From Pseudanabaena sp. FACHB-2040 (GTDB lineage Bacteria; Cyanobacteriota; Cyanobacteriia; Phormidesmidales; Phormidesmidaceae): a stretch of DNA of 64,000 bases. The notes beneath the pieces were generated by a model. It had not been told where the DNA came from. It did not search any database and saw only the letters and a list, made by a program, of their open reading frames with translations. The stretch covers positions 124,001 to 188,000 of the forward strand of contig NZ_JACJQO010000022.1 in assembly GCF_014696715.1 (NCBI RefSeq), in the 5' to 3' direction. The translations under genes were made by a program, and so were the position numbers. Shown here piece by piece: positions 36,985 to 46,059 of the stretch; position 1 is the first letter of the stretch, and every line of letters begins with the position of its first letter.

Positions 36985-38217
36985 ATGATAGAAAATCAGT
37001 CTCTTTTAAAGGTGAAGCCCGCTTTTTTGTTTCTGCTGCTGGTCGCATTTACCTACACGGTTCTCTTTTTTGCGATGGACCAGCTGCGCGGTCCGTTTTG
37101 GATTGATGAGGCGTGGTTTTGGGAAACGAGCCAACAGTTTAGCCAAAGCCTGATCCCAACGCTGGATCAGCTGCGCAACTACAACGAGCTGAATACGCCG
37201 CTGCCGTTTATCCTCTACGGCATGCTGGAGTATTTGTTTGATGATGGCCTGTTTGCGGGCAGGCTTCTAAACTTTTTGCTGTCGATAGCAATTGTGTTTT
37301 TGATTGGCTGGCCAGGGCAAGGCAAGCGCTTTAAGCCAATTCTCGCTGTGCTGGGCCTATTTTTATTTCCCTATTTTTTGTGGCTAAGCGCCAGATTTTA
37401 TACAGACCTGATTGCCTCTATCTTCGCGCTGCTGGGCGTTGTGTTTTACCTGCGCAAGCAGCCCATCGTTAGCGGGCTGGTTTTTATTCTGGCGATCGCA
37501 TCTCGGCAATACATGGTGGCGTTTCCGGTTGCGATCGCAGCCCATGAGCTAGTCATTGCCATTCGTTATCGGCAGCGGCCTAGCCTCAGCTTTTTTCTGC
37601 CCTTTTTTGCGGCGCTGTCGCTGCTGGGGTGGTTTGTGCTATTTGGCGGGCTGGCCCCGCAAAATGCACTGGCTTCGCGGCCGGCTCCAGATGTGCAGTA
37701 TTCGTTCTGGGCCTTGTTGCCAAGCAGCAGCATATTTTTTCTATCCAGCATTGGGCTATCTTTTGTGATTCCAGAGTTTCTGCTGCTTTACCGCAGGCTC
37801 GACTGGAGCGCTGTTTTTTCTAAAAAGTCGCTGCTGATTGCAGGCGGGCTGCTGCTGCTGTTTATCATCTTTCCGCCGCCCGAATCAGCTAAGGGATTGG
37901 TGTGGCGGGTGGCCGAGGCTCCAGATGGAGTGCTGTTCATTCCCCGCCTGACAATTCAGCGGGGCGTGTATTATGGGCTGGCGCTCTTGACCTGCCTGCG
38001 GTTCTCTAATTTAGGCTTGGGGGGGTGGATGGTGCTTTTCAACGCCCTGATCATGCTCAAAGCTTTTCCTTGGGACCGCTATTCGCTGCCGCTGATCATT
38101 GTCCTGTGGTATTTACAGTCAAAGAACCAGCTAGATCATCCTCTCGCAAGATCTCCAGTGCCTGCCCCTGAGAGGGTAGAGGAAGCGCCCCCTCCAGCCA
38201 AGACTGGAATCGCGTGA
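36985..38217 (+). CDS. GT-C (GT39/ArnT-like) membrane glycosyltransferase, copy 1
   Basis: A 410-residue protein with about ten hydrophobic segments. Seen: after the first span GPFWIDEAWFWETSQQFSQ, an acidic Asp-Glu in the first periplasmic loop, the place where GT-C enzymes keep their catalytic acid; YNELNTPLPFILYG, GRLLNFLLSIAIVFLIGW and ASRQYMVAFPVAIAAHEL in later loops and spans. This is the outline of dolichyl/undecaprenyl-phosphate-sugar dependent transferases that act on the outer face of the inner membrane. The first about 225 residues are almost identical to the next gene, while the C-terminal half differs clearly. It has a 28-bp gap to the preceding GT4 gene. Activity and acceptor are inferred. 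Confidence 0.8.
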   Translation: MIENQSLLKVKPAFLFLLLVAFTYTVLFFAMDQLRGPFWIDEAWFWETSQQFSQSLIPTLDQLRNYNELNTPLPFILYGMLEYLFDDGLFAGRLLNFLLSIAIVFLIGWPGQGKRFKPILAVLGLFLFPYFLWLSARFYTDLIASIFALLGVVFYLRKQPIVSGLVFILAIASRQYMVAFPVAIAAHELVIAIRYRQRPSLSFFLPFFAALSLLGWFVLFGGLAPQNALASRPAPDVQYSFWALLPSSSIFFLSSIGLSFVIPEFLLLYRRLDWSAVFSKKSLLIAGGLLLLFIIFPPPESAKGLVWRVAEAPDGVLFIPRLTIQRGVYYGLALLTCLRFSNLGLGGWMVLFNALIMLKAFPWDRYSLPLIIVLWYLQSKNQLDHPLARSPVPAPERVEEAPPPAKTGIA

Positions 38218-38241
38218 GGGACAGGAGCGTGCGAATCGGTT

Positions 38242-38266
38242 AATGGTGCTGGCAGCCAGCGCCATT
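38242..38266 (+). other. Stem-loop between the duplicated GT-C genes
   Basis: AATGGTGCTGG and CCAGCGCCATT form an 11-bp stem (one U-G pair in RNA) with a three-base loop, 25 bp after the stop of copy 1. A run of five T occurs 9 bp later, so it may weakly terminate or stabilise the transcript end. Confidence 0.5.
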
Positions 38267-38369
38267 ACAGCCATTTTTGCCTGCATTCGCCACCTGTGCA
38301 CCCATCCACGCCATCCACCCTAGCCTGTAGCTTACTGATCTGATTTTGTAGAATCTCGTTCTGGTCATC

Positions 38370-39587
38370 ATGATAGAAAATCAGCCTCTCTTAAAGGTCA
38401 AGCCCGCCTTTTTATTTCTGCTGCTGATTGCATTTACCTACACGGTTCTCTTTTTCGCGATGGACCAGCTGCGCGGTCCGTTTTGGATCGATGAGGCGTG
38501 GTTTTGGGAAACGAGCCAGCAGTTTAGCCAAAGCCTGATCCCAACGCTGGATCAGCTGCGCAACTACAACGAGCTGAATACGCCGCTGCCGTTTATCCTC
38601 TACGGCATGCTGGAGTATTTGTTTGACGATGGCCTGTTTGCGGGCAGGCTCCTAAATTTTTTGCTGTCGATAGCAATTGTGTTTTTAATTGGCTGGCCGG
38701 GGCAAGGCAAGCACTTTAAGCCGATTCTCGCCGTGCTAGGCCTATTTTTATTTCCCTATTTTTTGTGGCTAAGCGCCAGATTTTATACAGACCTGATTGC
38801 CTCTATCTTCGCGCTGCTGGGCGTTGTGTTTTATCTACGCAAGCAGCCCATCGTTAGCGGGCTGGTTTTTATTCTGGCGATCGCATCTCGGCAGTATATG
38901 GTGGCGTTTCCGGTTGCGATCGCAGCCCATGAGCTGGTCATCGCCATTCGTCATCGGCAGCGGCCTAGCCTCAGCTTTTTTCTGCCCTTTTTTGCGGCGC
39001 TGTCGTTGCTGGGGTGGTTTGTACTGTTTGGCGGGCTGACCCCGCAAAATGCACTGGCGGCGCGGCCTGCCCCAGAGGTGCAGCAGTCACTTTGGGCCTT
39101 GTTGCCGAACAGCGGCCTATTTTTTCTATCCGGCCTCGGGCTGGCTTTTGTGATTCCAGAGTTTTTGCTGTTTTACCGCAGGCTGGATTGGAAAGCGGTG
39201 TTTAGCAAGAAGTCGCTGCTGATCGCGGTCGGGCTGCTAGTGCTGTTTATTGTCTTTCCGCCACCTGACTTTGCGCGCGGGCTAGCGTGGCGGGTAGGGG
39301 GGCTAATGCCGCTGCTGCCCCTGCGACAGGCGTTGTTTTATGGTCTGGCGGTTTTGACGTGCTTACGGTTTGCCAATCTCAGCCTGGCCTCGTGGATGGT
39401 GCTTTTCAACGCTTTGATTATGATGAAGGCGTTTCCCTGGGATCGCTATGCACTGCCGCTGCTGATTGTCCTGTGGTATCTGCAGGCGAGGAACCAGATG
39501 GACCATCCGCTGGCGGGGATGCGATCGCACCCCTCCGATCGCGCAGCAGCAGGGGCCGAAGATACCGAAGCGATTGAGATGGCCTGA
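38370..39587 (+). CDS. GT-C (GT39/ArnT-like) membrane glycosyltransferase, copy 2
   Basis: A 405-residue paralogue of the preceding gene. The first about 225 residues differ at only about five positions (for example Ser6 to Pro and Tyr to His near residue 196), and even the 25 bases before the ATG are similar, so this is a recent tandem duplication. After about residue 225 the proteins diverge: PEVQQSLWALLPNSG against PDVQYSFWALLPSSS, and a rewritten loop after FPPPDFARGLAWRV. The tail after NQMDHPLAG is unrelated. The conserved first-loop Asp-Glu (WIDEAWFW) is kept, so both copies could be active but with different acceptor specificity. Last gene of the plus-strand locus. Confidence 0.8.
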   Translation: MIENQPLLKVKPAFLFLLLIAFTYTVLFFAMDQLRGPFWIDEAWFWETSQQFSQSLIPTLDQLRNYNELNTPLPFILYGMLEYLFDDGLFAGRLLNFLLSIAIVFLIGWPGQGKHFKPILAVLGLFLFPYFLWLSARFYTDLIASIFALLGVVFYLRKQPIVSGLVFILAIASRQYMVAFPVAIAAHELVIAIRHRQRPSLSFFLPFFAALSLLGWFVLFGGLTPQNALAARPAPEVQQSLWALLPNSGLFFLSGLGLAFVIPEFLLFYRRLDWKAVFSKKSLLIAVGLLVLFIVFPPPDFARGLAWRVGGLMPLLPLRQALFYGLAVLTCLRFANLSLASWMVLFNALIMMKAFPWDRYALPLLIVLWYLQARNQMDHPLAGMRSHPSDRAAAGAEDTEAIEMA

Positions 39588-39707: not shown

Positions 39708-39733
39708 AAAAAAACCGGAGTAGAATGCTCCGG
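39708..39733 (-). terminator. Rho-independent terminator of exosortase cassette A
   Basis: Read on the minus strand, CCGGAG and CTCCGG form a 6-bp stem with a 7-base loop followed by seven T. It stands about 105 bp after the stop of the PTPA-CTERM gene at 39839. Confidence 0.85.
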
Positions 39734-39838
39734 CTGATGGATATGGCTCTCTAGGTCTTTTGAAACCAGGATGGGCTTCAAGCAGCTAGAGGATTAGGAG
39801 GGTTCGATCGATCTTCTCCTCGCAACGGGTCTGGTGAA

Positions 39839-40441
39839 TTAGTCTTCGGCAGACTCTTCAGAGTCATCCCGGCGCTTCCGCAGGGCGGTTAGGCCCATAC
39901 CGATGAGGCCGGGCAGCAGGGCTGGGGTCGGCACTGCGGTAACGCTGCCTTCGAGGGGGAACAGGAAGGCTGCACTACCCCGGAAGGGGAAGGGAGCGGG
40001 AGTCTCTACACCTTCAAAGCTATCGAGATTTCCGCCGCCGACTAGGCTAATGGTGTCACCAAACCGAGCGCTTCCCAAGTTAGAAGCAAACTCTAGCTTC
40101 AGGAGGCTCTGAAGCGAAGGGGTGCTTTCACTGGTAGAAAACCAGGCTTTAACGCCGTTAGAGGCTAAGCCAGGAACTAGACCATCGTAATCGCGATCCA
40201 AAAGATCAGAGGTGATCTTGATGTTGGAGTATCCATTGACATCATCGTAATCAAATGAGCCTGTGAGCTTACCTACAGAGGTGGTTGGGCTCAGGGAAGA
40301 TTCGAAGATGTTGGCATTGATCTTAAAGGTCAGGGCCGAAGCGGGGTCTGCTCCCATCAGCACCATGCTGGCGGCGGTACCCGCCATGGTGACGGACAGT
40401 GCAAGATTTTTGAAAGATTGAGTTGTAGACATCATTGCCAT
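39839..40441 (-). CDS. PTPA-CTERM sorting-signal protein, cassette A (exosortase substrate)
   Basis: A 200-residue predicted secreted protein. Seen: an N-terminal signal peptide with a hydrophobic core and a cleavage site near ASA-LTF (about residue 37); a Ser/Gly-rich, low-Cys mature part with short beta-like stretches; and a C-terminal VPTPALLPGLIGMG, hydrophobic residues and LRKRR, which is the tripartite PEP-CTERM layout with PTPA as the recognition motif. An acidic tail (DDSEESAED) follows the basic cluster. Exosortases cut such tails and may attach the protein to a membrane or glycan. The function of the mature part is unknown. It is preceded by a conserved leader and by an exosortase gene, and followed by a terminator. 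Start choice among Met 1, 3 and 4 is uncertain. Confidence 0.88.
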   Translation of the reverse strand: MAMMSTTQSFKNLALSVTMAGTAASMVLMGADPASALTFKINANIFESSLSPTTSVGKLTGSFDYDDVNGYSNIKITSDLLDRDYDGLVPGLASNGVKAWFSTSESTPSLQSLLKLEFASNLGSARFGDTISLVGGGNLDSFEGVETPAPFPFRGSAAFLFPLEGSVTAVPTPALLPGLIGMGLTALRKRRDDSEESAED

Positions 40442-40556
40442 TACCTTTGTTTAGATTGCAGGTATGTCTTGGTAGATTCCCTGTTCAGGTAGATGACTGG
40501 GTAGATGTCCTATGGCTGATTCCTATAGTCGCCGATACAATGCCTCGGGCGCGGGC
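40442..40556 (-). promoter_or_regulatory. Conserved leader of PTPA gene A with GGTAGAT iterons
   Basis: This stretch matches the leader of the second PTPA gene (43305-43420) along about 115 bp, far more than the flanks. It includes GATACAATGCCTCGG, GCGGGCAG and GGCTGATTC. GGTAGAT (plus-strand reading) occurs at 40471-40477, 40488-40494 and 40500-40506. Direct repeats of this kind are typical of regulator-binding sites; which regulator binds is unknown. Confidence 0.65.
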
Positions 40557-40562
40557 AGAACG

Positions 40563-41477
40563 CTAGATCTGTTTTGTGGGTCGGCGTTTGATTAGCGTCA
40601 TCACGGTGTAGTGAAAAACAGTCAACAAAATACTAGAAAAGATTTGGCCGCCCCAGGTTCCATGCCAGAAGTTAAATGATTCTTTGCCCCAATAGACGGC
40701 AGCAATGGCTAACAGCATGATCCGAGGAACGTTGAAGATGAGGGCCAGCACGATACCCATGGCCATGATAGCTAATGTGGTGTGCCAGCGCTGTTGATAA
40801 AACAGGCCCATAATCAGTCCGGCGGCGGCCATGGTAAAGGCCATGTTGAAGCCGTTGCAGCCCCACCCCACTTCTACGGCTCCGTTAGGCGGCAAAAAGA
40901 CAAGGATGCCCTTCGCAACGGCGGGTCTGCCAACGGCGCTTAAGGCGGCAGCTCCGGCCTGGGCCATGATTTGCTCTAGAAATAGGGGGGGTGTGAGGGC
41001 TTCCCAGAGGATGCGGGCAAACAGGCCAGGTTTGGGATAGGCAGTGATGACAAACAGCAGGGTCGGTAGGGGGTAGCAGGTAAAGAACTGAATGCCCCAA
41101 GAGCTGACGGTGATGCCTGCCAAAATCAATAGCCACAGGATGGCCTGGGGCCAGACGGCAAAGCGACAGAGGGGAAAGGCTGCAACGCTGCAGAGGATCA
41201 ACAGGTGACCGATGACCTGATCTGGCTCGGAGGCTTCGAGCTGGGCGATTTTTTGTCGGTTGGTCCAGATCTGTTTGAGGCCTAGGGCTAGGGCGGCTCC
41301 AATTAGGGGCAACCCAGCGGAGCCGTGTTGCAGTCGACCGACGAGGGCGGGCAGCCAGGTCTGTAGATAGACCAGACCCATACATAGCCCCATCAATACA
41401 AACCGACCATGCCAGTCTCTAACTGCAGCTTTGAGATAAGACAGGCCCCACTGTCTAAACAGCAAGGTCTGCTTCAT
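40563..41477 (-). CDS. Cyanoexosortase, cassette A
   Basis: A 304-residue membrane protein with about eight hydrophobic segments. Exosortases are membrane cysteine transpeptidase-like enzymes that process PEP-CTERM-type tails. Seen: VEVGWGCNGFNMAFTMAAAG with the catalytic Cys at about residue 204, FNVPRIMLLAIAAVYW with the conserved Arg at about 245, and FWHGTWGGQIFSS with the His at about 265. ILWEALTPP before the core and a basic C-terminus (KRRPTKQI) complete the outline. The start codon overlaps the stop of the HpsJ-like gene by one base (TAATG), so the two are coupled. The substrate is most likely the PTPA-CTERM protein encoded 121 bp downstream. Subtype (cyanoexosortase C) is suggested from its HpsJ partner, from memory. 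Confidence 0.92.
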   Translation of the reverse strand: MKQTLLFRQWGLSYLKAAVRDWHGRFVLMGLCMGLVYLQTWLPALVGRLQHGSAGLPLIGAALALGLKQIWTNRQKIAQLEASEPDQVIGHLLILCSVAAFPLCRFAVWPQAILWLLILAGITVSSWGIQFFTCYPLPTLLFVITAYPKPGLFARILWEALTPPLFLEQIMAQAGAAALSAVGRPAVAKGILVFLPPNGAVEVGWGCNGFNMAFTMAAAGLIMGLFYQQRWHTTLAIMAMGIVLALIFNVPRIMLLAIAAVYWGKESFNFWHGTWGGQIFSSILLTVFHYTVMTLIKRRPTKQI

Positions 41478-42088
41478 TACCGCCTCTTGCGGGAGCCGCT
41501 GCTAGAGGAGAGGGCTGTGCGCCCGAGGCTGATGAGCCCAATGCCAACGACGACCAGGTTGCTGGTGCTGGCAATTCCGGTGCGGGTAATGGTGGTTTTG
41601 GCGTTTTGCTTGAGGGCTTCTGCCTGGGAGGTGATTTGCTGGGTGGCCTGCTCTAGCTGCTCGGGAGAGGGTGGGGCGGCCAGGTCTGGGTTGGTCTGGC
41701 TCTGCTCTACTTGGGTCTGCAGCTGGGCGGCCTGTTGGCCGATGTTGGTGAGGGCTTGGGCCTGGAGGGTAAGGCTGTCGCGGATGACGACGATGGAGGT
41801 GAGCAGAAATAATACGCCGATGCTGAGGGCGGCATAGGAGAGGAGTTTGCGAATTTGGGGAATGTCCCAAATGCTGTAGGCGAATAGGGCCATGCCAAAC
41901 AGCAGGATGATGCTGCGATCGCTCATCTGCTGCAGGAGGCCAGCTCGCCAGGCGGCTCCTGCACTCGGCGGTAGGGCCAGCACGGCCATATCGATGAAGA
42001 AGCCGATGAGGCAGGCTAGCCCGACGATGCGGCAGAGTATTGGCCCGCTGAAGGAGCTAGGGGAGGCTTGATTTGGAAAGCTAACCAT
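41477..42088 (-). CDS. HpsJ-like exosortase-associated membrane protein, cassette A
   Basis: ATG at 42088 is preferred over an in-frame ATG at 42196 because the second copy in this window starts at the same point (203 residues). Seen: an N-terminal membrane span in CRIVGLACLIGFFIDMAVLAL, the conserved SAGAAWRAGLLQQMSDRSIILLFGMAL, a third span ending SYAALSIGVLFLL, a Gln-rich coiled-coil-like stretch (about residues 105-165) and a last span in NLVVVGIGLISLG before a basic end. This is the layout of HpsJ-type proteins known from hormogonium polysaccharide genes and found next to cyanoexosortases. Its biochemical role is not known. It is coupled to the exosortase by a TAATG overlap. Confidence 0.85.
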   Translation of the reverse strand: MVSFPNQASPSSFSGPILCRIVGLACLIGFFIDMAVLALPPSAGAAWRAGLLQQMSDRSIILLFGMALFAYSIWDIPQIRKLLSYAALSIGVLFLLTSIVVIRDSLTLQAQALTNIGQQAAQLQTQVEQSQTNPDLAAPPSPEQLEQATQQITSQAEALKQNAKTTITRTGIASTSNLVVVGIGLISLGRTALSSSSGSRKRR

Positions 42089-42576: not shown

Positions 42577-42608
42577 AAAAAAAAAGGCCGGAGTGAAACA
42601 CTCCGGCC
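42577..42608 (-). terminator. Rho-independent terminator of exosortase cassette B
   Basis: On the minus strand GGCCGGAGTG and CACTCCGGCC form a perfect 10-bp stem with a 3-base loop, followed by nine T. It shares the CCGGAG/CTCCGG core with the terminator of cassette A and lies about 100 bp after the stop of the PTPA-CTERM gene at 42708. Confidence 0.93.
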
Positions 42609-42707: not shown

Positions 42708-43304
42708 CTAGGCTTCTGCAGAGTCTTCGGAACCCTCCTTACGCTTGCGCAGCGCTGCAACGCCCATGCCGATGAGGCCGGGGAGCAGGGCTGGGGTGGG
42801 AACGGCTGTGAAATCCCCGGTAAAGGTGTTGTTAAGGGAAGTGAATGCAACTTGTCCTACACCCTGGGTACCATTGCCAAAGAAACCCTTAAAGTTGAAC
42901 CGCATGTCTGCGTCGAAGATCGCAGAAGTGGCGAAGAAGTCAAAGTCATCACCGTTAACATCCACAAGTTTAAAGGGGGAAAATGCACTGATGCTGCTAA
43001 CGTCTGTGACATTAGCAAATTGAATGTTAACCCGTCTAGGGTTGTTAGGGTCTGGTGCTGGTGCCAGTGAAGTAAAGCCAAGGTTGGCAAAAGTAATGAA
43101 AGCCGTCTCGTCAAAACCAGGCAAACCAGGAATAGGAGAAGTGAAGTTAATTGAGTTTGGGGTAAAAACTCCTTGTCCAGAGATTGAGTACGTGCTGCCG
43201 ATTTGAACAGCTTCTGCAGGGGCAGATATCGCTAGAAAAGCGGTAGCGACCACGCTTACCGCAGCAAAGTTTTTGAGCGATTGAGTTACAGACATCGTTG
43301 CCAT
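42708..43304 (-). CDS. PTPA-CTERM sorting-signal protein, cassette B (exosortase substrate)
   Basis: A 198-residue predicted secreted protein. Seen: an N-terminal signal peptide (MSVTQSLKN, hydrophobic core, cleavage near AEA-VQI at about residue 33), a mature part rich in Phe, Asn, Thr and Gly with no Cys, and the C-terminal signal VPTPALLPGLIGMG, hydrophobic residues, LRKRK and an acidic tail EGSEDSAEA. The N-terminal TQSxKN and the whole C-terminal signal match the cassette A protein, but the mature parts between are not alignable by eye, so these are two different substrates sharing one export and sorting package. It should be processed by one of the window's exosortases; the nearest one upstream is truncated. 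Confidence 0.88.
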   Translation of the reverse strand: MATMSVTQSLKNFAAVSVVATAFLAISAPAEAVQIGSTYSISGQGVFTPNSINFTSPIPGLPGFDETAFITFANLGFTSLAPAPDPNNPRRVNIQFANVTDVSSISAFSPFKLVDVNGDDFDFFATSAIFDADMRFNFKGFFGNGTQGVGQVAFTSLNNTFTGDFTAVPTPALLPGLIGMGVAALRKRKEGSEDSAEA

Positions 43305-43420
43305 TACCTTTTTTTGAAATTAGTGGGTATAAATTGGTAGATACCCTAAGTAGGTAGATGACTAGTAAATGTCACAGGCTGATTCTAGGTTCACCGATAC
43401 AATGCCTCGGACGCGGGCAG
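43305..43420 (-). promoter_or_regulatory. Conserved leader of PTPA gene B with GGTAGAT iterons
   Basis: It aligns with the cassette A leader along about 115 bp. GGTAGAT (plus-strand reading) stands at 43336-43342 and 43353-43359, with a degenerate AGTAAAT at 43364-43370, at the same 17 and about 12 base spacings as in copy A. CACCGATACAATGCCTCGG marks the outer end. A regulator site or a shared promoter is inferred. Confidence 0.65.
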
Positions 43421-43512
43421 CTCACAGGTCCCTAGTATTATTAGAAAGAGTTTTTAATCAGACGATGCCATTGTTTTTTGGGTTTCTGATATCTATGCTA
43501 GGTATAAGTTTT

Positions 43513-43594
43513 GTAGGATGGGCAAAGCAAAGCGTGCCCATCACAGTACGGCTCTAAACGATGGGCACGGGCTATCGCCCTTTGCCCATCCTAC
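43513..43594. repeat. MITE-like palindromic repeat, copy 1
   Basis: An 82-bp element opening GTAGGATGGGCAAAG and closing with the inverted CTTTGCCCATCCTAC. The same opening recurs at 59756 and 61012 with different inner sequence. It lies between the truncated exosortase and the PTPA gene leader. Confidence 0.85.
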
Positions 43595-43632
43595 TAGCTA
43601 CGTATAAGTGCAGCTCTTTACAATTGCTGCCT

Positions 43633-44037
43633 CTACCTTGCTGGTTGGCGATTGATTAAGGCCATCACAGCATAGTAGAAGACGGTAAACAATACGCTGG
43701 AAAAGAGCTGTCCACCCCAGTGGCCATGCCAGAACTTAAATGAGGCTTCGCCCCAATAGACTGACGCAATGGTGAGCAGCATAATTCTAGGAACGTTGAA
43801 GATGAGGGCTAGAACGGTGCCAACCGCCATAATCGACAGGGTGTTGTACCAGCGCTGCTTGTAGAAAAGGCCCATAATTAGTCCGGCAGCGGCCATGGTA
43901 AAGGCCATGTTGAAGCCGTTGCAACCCCAGTCAACATTTACGGCTCCGGCTGGGGGCAGGGCGACGATGCTGCCTTCTGCGATCGCAGGTTGCCCAATTA
44001 CTCTTAAAGCGGCGGCTCCTGCGTGGGCCATGATCAC
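43633..44037 (-). pseudogene. N-terminally truncated cyanoexosortase, cassette B
   Basis: The frame codes for 134 residues that match only the C-terminal half of the cassette A exosortase. Seen: VNVDWGCNGFNMAFTMAAAG with the catalytic Cys, FNVPRIMLLTIASVYW with the Arg, and FWHGHWGGQLFSS with the His, so all three key residues are intact and no frameshift occurs. About 170 N-terminal residues, including roughly five membrane spans, are missing. Similarity reaches upstream of the GTG at 44037 (codons FLEV line up with FLEQ in copy A) and stops at the TAA of the HpsJ gene at 44059-44061, so a deletion removed the 5' part cleanly after HpsJ. It may be a dead gene or a half-size protein working with another copy. 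Confidence 0.85.
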
Positions 44038-44058: not shown

Positions 44059-44676
44059 TTATCTCCTCTGACGGGGTCTACCTGCGGTGCCGCTAGAAGT
44101 CATGGAGGCTCGGCCCAAGCTAATGAGACCAATGCCAACAACGACGAAGTTGCTAGTACTGGCGATGCTGGCTCGGGTAATGGTGGTTTTAGCGTTTTGC
44201 TTGAGGGTTTCTGCCTGAGCGTTGATTTGTTGAGTAGCCTGCTCAAACTGCTCATTGGTGACTGAGGCTGCGTCCGGGTTGGTGCGGCTCTCTTCAACTT
44301 GAGTCTGTAACTCGGCTGCTTGTTGGCCGATGTTTTCAAGGGTTTGACTTTGAAGCATGAGACTGTCGCGGATGACCAAAATGCAGAATAGCAGGAACAA
44401 AACGCCAATACTGAGGGCAGCGTAGGAGAGGATCTTGCGGATTTGGGAGATCTCCCAAACACTGTAGGCGATTAGGGCAATGCCAAAGAGCAGGATGATG
44501 CTGCGATCGCCCATCTGCTGCAAAATGCCTACGCGCCAGGCAGCGCCAGCACTAGGAGGGAGGGCCAGCACGGTCATATCGACGAGGAAGCCGACAATAC
44601 AAGCTAAGCCGACGATGCGGCAAAGTACTTGACTGCCAAACGAACTGGAAGAAATTTGATTTGAAATGCTAACCAT
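44059..44676 (-). CDS. HpsJ-like exosortase-associated membrane protein, cassette B
   Basis: A 205-residue paralogue of the cassette A HpsJ-like protein, with the start set at 44676 because the alignable region begins there (MVSISNQISSSSFGSQ). Seen: CRIVGLACIVGFLVDMTVLAL, SAGAAWRVGILQQMGDRSI, a span ending SYAALSIGVLFLLFCIL, a coiled-coil-like QQAAELQTQVEESRTNPDA stretch, and a last span NFVVVGIGLISLGRA before a basic end. Well over half of the residues are the same in the two copies. The gene is intact although the exosortase gene after it has lost its 5' part, which suggests that HpsJ is still in use or that the deletion is recent. Confidence 0.85.
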   Translation of the reverse strand: MVSISNQISSSSFGSQVLCRIVGLACIVGFLVDMTVLALPPSAGAAWRVGILQQMGDRSIILLFGIALIAYSVWEISQIRKILSYAALSIGVLFLLFCILVIRDSLMLQSQTLENIGQQAAELQTQVEESRTNPDAASVTNEQFEQATQQINAQAETLKQNAKTTITRASIASTSNFVVVGIGLISLGRASMTSSGTAGRPRQRR

Positions 44677-45144: not shown

Positions 45145-46059
45145 CTAGGCTAACTTTCGGGAACGGTGTTTGATAATAGCCATCACAGCGTAGTAATAAA
45201 CAGTGAACAACGCTCCAGAGAAAATTTGCCCTCCCCAAGTCCCATGCCAGAAGTTGAAGGAAGCTTCTCCCCAATGAATCGATGCAACTGTTAATAGCAT
45301 GATTCGAGGAATGTTAAAAATCAATGCCATAACTGCACCAACAATGGTCATGATAAAAACAGTAGGGCCACGCTGCTTAAGTAAAATGCCAAGGAAAAAA
45401 CCAGTTGCAGCCATGGTGCAGGCCATACTAAAGCCATTGCAGCCCCAGTCTACATGAACAGAACCTTCAGGTGGCAAAACTACGAGACTACCTTCTGAGA
45501 TTGCGGGCAGGCCAATTAGCCTAAGTCCGAATGCTCCACTCCAAGCCATAAACCGATTTAAGTAGTCATGGGGAGTCAGCGTTTCCCAAAGGACTCGAGC
45601 AAGGATACCAGGTTTGGGATAAACCGTAACAGCAATGAGCAAGCTAGGGAGGGGAAAATGCTTAAAAAAGACAATCCCCCACGTACTAATAACGATACCG
45701 CTGAGAGCGCAGAACCATAGTATGCTTTGCGCCCACACGGCGAAGCTGCAGAAAGGAAACAGAACAACACTGCATAGGATCAGCAGATGGCCTAAAAATT
45801 CATCCGATTCAGATACTTGCAGTTGAACTATTGCCTGACGACTTTTCCAAAGTTGCCAAAGACCCATGGCTACACAGCCTAAAATTAGAGGCATGGCACC
45901 TGAACCTTGAAGAGTTCGGGTACCTAAGTGGAAAAGCCAAATTGGAAAATAGATTAACCCTACGGTGAGTCCAGCTAAGACAAATCGGCCATGCCAGGAT
46001 TTAAAGGAGTTTCTCAAATAGGCCGGGCTCTGTTTCACGTTTCCTAAAAAAGTATTCAT
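45145..46059 (-). CDS. Cyanoexosortase, third copy (stand-alone)
   Basis: A 304-residue full-length paralogue of the cassette A exosortase, with about eight membrane segments. Seen: VHVDWGCNGFSMACTMAATG with the catalytic Cys, FNIPRIMLLTVASIHW with the Arg and FWHGTWGGQIFSGA with the His, plus TVYPKPGILARVLWETLTP before the core. The catalytic part shares DWGCNGF and LLT-AS with the truncated copy, while the truncated copy is otherwise nearer to cassette A. No HpsJ or PTPA gene is attached; the next gene downstream on this strand is the cassette B HpsJ gene, 468 bp away, so it could serve as the exosortase of that cassette. It sits beside the second polysaccharide locus. Confidence 0.9.
   Translation of the reverse strand: MNTFLGNVKQSPAYLRNSFKSWHGRFVLAGLTVGLIYFPIWLFHLGTRTLQGSGAMPLILGCVAMGLWQLWKSRQAIVQLQVSESDEFLGHLLILCSVVLFPFCSFAVWAQSILWFCALSGIVISTWGIVFFKHFPLPSLLIAVTVYPKPGILARVLWETLTPHDYLNRFMAWSGAFGLRLIGLPAISEGSLVVLPPEGSVHVDWGCNGFSMACTMAATGFFLGILLKQRGPTVFIMTIVGAVMALIFNIPRIMLLTVASIHWGEASFNFWHGTWGGQIFSGALFTVYYYAVMAIIKHRSRKLA

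Follow-up and report, generated by a model that had tools for sequence, protein, structure and literature searches.

The window analysed here is a stretch of 64,000 nucleotides (G000:C22:124001-188000) from a cyanobacterial genome of 6.3 Mb, and its minus strand carries one cassette as two tandem copies, A and B. In order, the cassette encodes an HpsJ-like C protein and cyanoexosortase C (crtC), followed by the leader, a PTPA-CTERM gene and a terminator-like hairpin. In cassette A these lie at 41477-42088 (HpsJ-like C, NF050019), 40563-41477 (crtC, NF033464), 39839-40441 (PTPA-CTERM gene, NF033465, 51.3 bits) and 39713-39735 (hairpin). The counterparts in cassette B are found at 44059-44676 (NF050019), 43633-44037, 42708-43304 (NF033465, 54.8 bits) and 42586-42608, all on the minus strand. 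The PTPA-CTERM tail, CrtC and HpsJ-like C of this PTPA-CTERM/cyanoexosortase C system exceed their curated cut-offs, with the exception of CrtC B, which is truncated to its C-terminal half (134 amino acids) and falls below its cut-off. PTPA genes A and B encode exported, exosortase-sorted proteins; no paper naming PTPA-CTERM was found in the literature searched. Although crtC is cut in cassette B, leader B and PTPA gene B are intact. About 200 bp of additional DNA (43430-43632) separates crtC-B from leader B, and this insert, which contains a perfect 15-nt inverted repeat (GTAGGATGGGCAAAG/CTTTGCCCATCCTAC, 43513-43594), resembles a small mobile repeat. No such leader follows a third, intact crtC (45145-46059).

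Leader A (40442-40562, minus strand) extends from the stop codon of crtC-A to PTPA gene A, while leader B (43305-43430, minus strand) lies 5' of PTPA gene B. As proposed in the earlier note, the two align end to end: over 121 and 126 nt there are 97 identities, 17 mismatches and 19 gap positions (78% identity, z 16.6 relative to shuffles), and BLASTN likewise returns 78% identity (E 4.8e-15). The coordinates and spacings previously given for the word GGTAGAT, which reads ATCTACC on the minus strand, were reproduced in both leaders. Leader A holds three copies, at 40500-40506, 40488-40494 and 40471-40477, the last of which is preceded by CAGGG. Leader B holds copies at 43353-43359 and 43336-43342, the latter preceded by TAGGG, and a degenerate third copy at 43364-43370 (AGTAAAT as read on the plus strand). 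The GGTAGAT copies are spaced by 17 and 12 nucleotides from start to start in A, and by 17 and 11 in B when the degenerate copy is included. The shared block at the outer end is present as well, although it is longer than had been noted (CTGCCCGCG(C/T)CCGAGGCATTGTATCGG, minus strand). The mature coding parts fail to align, as had been claimed (proteins A and B share 40% identity when aligned globally with gaps, with 0.32 identity at fourfold sites). Alignment is seen, however, at the signal-peptide start and at the PTPA tail, and the conservation between A and B extends past the leader into the first codons.

The cassette has been duplicated whole, with DNA identities of 76% for HpsJ, 75% for CrtC and 77% for the PTPA tail. 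In comparison to the 78% identity of the leader, identity at the fourfold-degenerate sites of the duplicated crtC and hpsJ is 0.49-0.53. The DNA 5' of hpsJ is barely alignable between the copies (z 2.5), and downstream of the cassettes mainly the terminator stem is retained (z 5.7). A recent duplication, with equal identity in neighbouring non-coding DNA, had been named as a possible source of the leader similarity, and no such equal identity was found. With fourfold sites near 50% and hardly any alignment of the other non-coding DNA, the leader has been selected and is not merely recent. Judging from these comparisons, the cassette duplication is old and the leader has been kept since.

The repeat pair itself has a limited reach. 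This genome encodes four PTPA-CTERM genes, and the pair is absent at two of them (C22:195286 and C5:1074048), one of which has a single CTACC within GCATCCTACCTTCC; the proposal that one site serves all PTPA substrates therefore does not hold. Two exact words at fixed spacing, previously suggested as a diagnostic, gave 33 matches in 63 genomes with 4-6 spacer bases, compared with 28 for a reversed control, and the exact ATCTACC pair was rejected as a genome-wide marker, being at background level in these family genomes. An exception among word pairs is the PTPA gene beside crtC in genome G046, where ATCTACCCAGTAATCTACC is nearly identical to ATCTACCCAGTCATCTACC of leader A. Outside this genome, a BLASTN search with leader A in 143 relatives returned one chance match, within a coding gene.

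The enriched unit is a single TCTACC with variable companions: AGGG upstream, GTGCACTRCC downstream, or the complementary Shine-Dalgarno strand. A first set, comprising PTPA genes of the 34 among 63 family genomes that have them and a small number taken at crtC loci outside the family, was reduced to 65 non-redundant upstream regions, and the upstream regions of neighbouring genes served as controls. In an unbiased scan of all hexamers, TCTACC ranked first (30/65 compared with 24/287, p 1e-11); among 100 random splits of the controls, the best hexamer reached p 2.4e-6. TCTACC was again the top hexamer in a second, independent set of 52 non-redundant genes absent from the first, drawn from 25 genomes of other families (21/52 compared with 4/74, p 1.5e-6), and pooling both sets gave 51/117 compared with 28/361 (p 4e-17). 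The second-ranked hexamer of the first set, AGGTAG (17 compared with 9), is complement-like to the word and is enriched close to the start, with 11 occurrences within 20 nt of the ATG; CTACCA ranks after it. Additionally, an EM motif search converges on cATCTACC. Selection on the leader goes together with word enrichment at PTPA genes in each of the two independent sets. The recurrence of the word in front of such genes across many related cyanobacteria points to an undescribed shared control element. A candidate second conserved word, GAATCAG, showed weak enrichment in the family set (p 0.001), failed to replicate in other families and was rejected. Cyanobacterial PEP-CTERM genes (TIGR04155), taken as an outside control, yielded a single match in 16 genomes, too few for a comparison.

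Both window leaders contain YAGGG-N(0-14)-CTACC (CAGGGAATCTACC and TAGGGTATCTACC), which is enriched in the first set (14/65 compared with 3/287, p 7e-9) and in the second (12/52 compared with 2/74, p 4e-4). Two sharpened patterns were modelled on sequences belonging to the same set, and part of their matches is therefore expected: TCTACCN4GTGCACTACC with at most one mismatch had 13 matches in 63 genomes compared with 5 for the reversed control, and CAGGGN(1-2)CTCCTACCRNTCA had 7 in 388 genomes compared with 0. Five matches of the former lie within coding genes, and the other eight are all upstream of PTPA-type genes, of which seven are in the PTPA gene list and one, close to the end of a contig, encodes an exported protein. 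The matches of the latter, seven in all, lie 41-51 nt 5' of the ATG of genes for signal-peptide proteins, and the PTPA tail is intact in five of these. The informative part of these searches is the absence of other intergenic matches.

The leaders fall into classes. L217, L232, L235, L247, L248, L263 and L281 form a compact class whose consensus, TTCAGGG-N(0-2)-CTCCTACC, precedes the start by about 40-50 nt and in which ACUCCUA complements a UAGGAGU ribosome site. In other families, the PTPA leaders L223, L238, L245 and L252 have a GGTAG-C-CTACC palindrome 5' of the ATG, and most of them carry GGTAGGTT or a similar sequence at the ribosome site; the palindrome may provide arms for two mutually exclusive pairings or else act as a DNA dyad. 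A group of 15 PTPA leaders (L133 and 14 related ones) uses CATCTGCCTCTC, which is predicted to pair with GGAG...GCAGATG, start codon included.

Leaders A and B are predicted to share the same local fold, with an outer helix (GACAUC/U with GAUGUC), an inner helix and an apical hairpin. In both, a TCATCTACCT copy is predicted to pair with AAAGGTAATGGC, comprising the ribosome site and start, and the hairpin would extend into the first codons. The 3' arm AGGUAAUGGC of A (40437-40446, minus strand), which spans the ribosome site and the annotated AUG, would pair with GUCAU(C)UACCU (40487-40497), and GAUGUCU in codons 3-5 (40427-40433, minus strand), with its in-frame downstream AUG, would pair with 40504-40510. 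In B, the predicted partners of AGGUAAUGGC (43300-43309) and GAUGUC (43291-43296), both on the minus strand, are 43352-43362 and 43368-43373, respectively. The innermost C-G pair of the outer helix in A is U-G in B, so the pair is retained. In this predicted fold, copy 1 of ATCTACC in A adjoins the 5' arm of the outer helix; copy 2 and the copy at 43353-43359 in B lie within the arm pairing with the ribosome-binding site; and the apical hairpin holds copy 3 in A and the copy at 43336-43342 in B. Folding z-scores are -2.79 for A and -2.01 for B, and the two-sequence consensus reaches -4.4 against column shuffles, in windows picked after the structure had been seen. Longer folds including the upstream block are not significant (z -0.46 and 0.14).

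Pairing of the ribosome site with an upstream strand is also predicted elsewhere, with other partners (CCUUCGU:ACGAAGG, GUACUCC:GGAGUAC, GCUCCUA:UAGGAGC and AGCCUACC:GGUAGGUU). Among CTACC-bearing leaders, complementarity between the Shine-Dalgarno and the leader is higher for own than for swapped partners (15.5 compared with 13.4, p<0.0005), with p 0.59 in control leaders and no significance in the family set alone (p 0.61). When shared stems are collapsed, p is 0.03 in the motif-bearing leaders, and the signal is gone over all PTPA leaders. Related leaders that group into classes account for part of the swap-test result, which lowers confidence in an RNA-level role. An eight-sequence class contains two covarying pairs, a score of compensatory change reached by 42 of 500 shuffles, and mean folding energy does not differ between all PTPA leaders and controls (p 0.1). 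Furthermore, many word copies sit 100-200 nt upstream, where masking of the start site is not obvious.

Together, these data suggest that the leader serves PTPA-CTERM genes as a cis-regulatory element under selection, most likely acting in the mRNA to mask the start, with a probability of about one half. Of the earlier note's interpretation, a structured leader under regulation finds support in selection that goes beyond the duplication, the shared hairpin and word enrichment in two sets, but one site for all substrates does not. The 5' UTR would bear one or more (C)AUCUACC words, often directly after YAGGG. In the window, one copy would pair with the Shine-Dalgarno and start region (UCAUCUACCU with AGGUAAUGGC) and GAUGUC, which contains the in-frame AUG further downstream, would pair with GACAUC/U in the outer helix; together, both helices would mask initiation by default. 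A signal, protein or sRNA competing for the CUACC words would then open the hairpin and turn on translation of the surface protein. The fold in the cell, its repressive effect and the existence of a trans-acting factor are inferred. More doubtful is a family-wide translational switch, in which undescribed CUACC leader RNAs that mask the start site would govern many PTPA-CTERM substrates of cyanoexosortase C in several cyanobacterial families through one common opening factor; if true, the cargo of a sorting system would be controlled jointly at translation.

Such masking would resemble that of translational riboswitches, thermometers and autoregulated leaders, in which an upstream arm lies on the Shine-Dalgarno or start, and a helix over both in homologous leaders is predicted for A and B. 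Unlike in those systems, the arm here is a repeated 7-base word, and Rfam gave zero matches at gathering score for the window and 19 related loci.

The ATCTACC words may, tentatively, be read instead as direct-repeat operator half-sites for a DNA-binding regulator, such as a response regulator, which would make the PTPA genes a transcriptional regulon. The repeats at 12 and 17 bp spacing, the ATCTACC-N4-GTGCACTACC direct repeats (14 bp) far upstream of several genes and the GGTAG-C-CTACC palindromes of other families would suit an operator, as would the comparable shared site of proteobacterial PEP-CTERM genes (Haft et al., 2006; PMC1569441). However, the spacing of the repeats and how far they lie from the start are highly variable, the orientation bias is strong, and both the conservation and the predicted pairing extend into codons 3-5. 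In addition, leader A begins a few bases past the crtC stop, where no sigma-70-like promoter was found; the sigma-70 promoter scan gave nothing above chance. CTACC and AGGG as a -10/-35 pair were rejected because the gap between them varies from 0 to 14 bases. The collapse of stem classes, the average folding energies and the longer folds keep the mRNA reading at about one half and leave the operator a smaller share.

The proteobacterial site is a sigma-54/PrsR motif shared upstream of PEP-CTERM genes and stated as common to Proteobacteria only (Haft et al., 2006; PMC1569441). The element described here is likewise conserved, non-coding, located before a large share of exosortase substrates and taken as the mark of a dedicated regulon. 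Taxon, sequence and sorting tag are different, however, and this element overlaps both ribosome site and start and would probably be read at the RNA level. It would be the cyanobacterial counterpart of the PrsR site, probably at another level. The sigma-54 -24 GG/-12 GC elements are not conserved in the leaders, with GG-N10-GC in A (GGCATTGTATCGGC) and GT in B. Sigma-54 is known to be absent from Cyanobacteria.

The SigJ J-Box of hormogonium gene promoters (GGGaAtacT) has an almost invariant final T (PMC6495340). It shares with this element an association with cyanobacterial surface-polysaccharide genes and, in many leaders here, a GGG word before the motif. However, A has GGGAATCTA and B GGGTATCTA, the final T is missing and the AGGG-CTACC gap is variable; no J-Box with the conserved A and final T was found in leaders A and B. 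Nostoc co-expresses several PEP-CTERM genes that lack the J-Box, the promoter expected for them (CrtB study, PMC12188702). A common word found ahead of almost half of the PTPA-CTERM genes sampled is a handle on their regulator and signal.

It is improbable that the words are docking sites for a GGUAG-loop sRNA or an RNA-binding protein without a self-masking hairpin. Leaders carry multiple CUACC copies, more than one ribosome site can pair with, and there is no uniform fold across leaders; nevertheless, no sRNA or protein candidate was identified, and Rfam gave no match. That the leader similarity is a functionless remnant of the duplication is highly improbable: the entire cassette is duplicated and a gene-conversion tract may span leader and signal peptide, but the remaining non-coding cassette DNA is less identical, synonymous sites are near 50%, and the word recurs upstream of unrelated PTPA genes in other families.

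Cassette A is adjoined by genes for two near-identical tandem membrane proteins (36985-39587) with a weak ALG10-like match. A relative also adjoins the third PTPA gene (L016), which suggests that PTPA genes have a recurring partner here.
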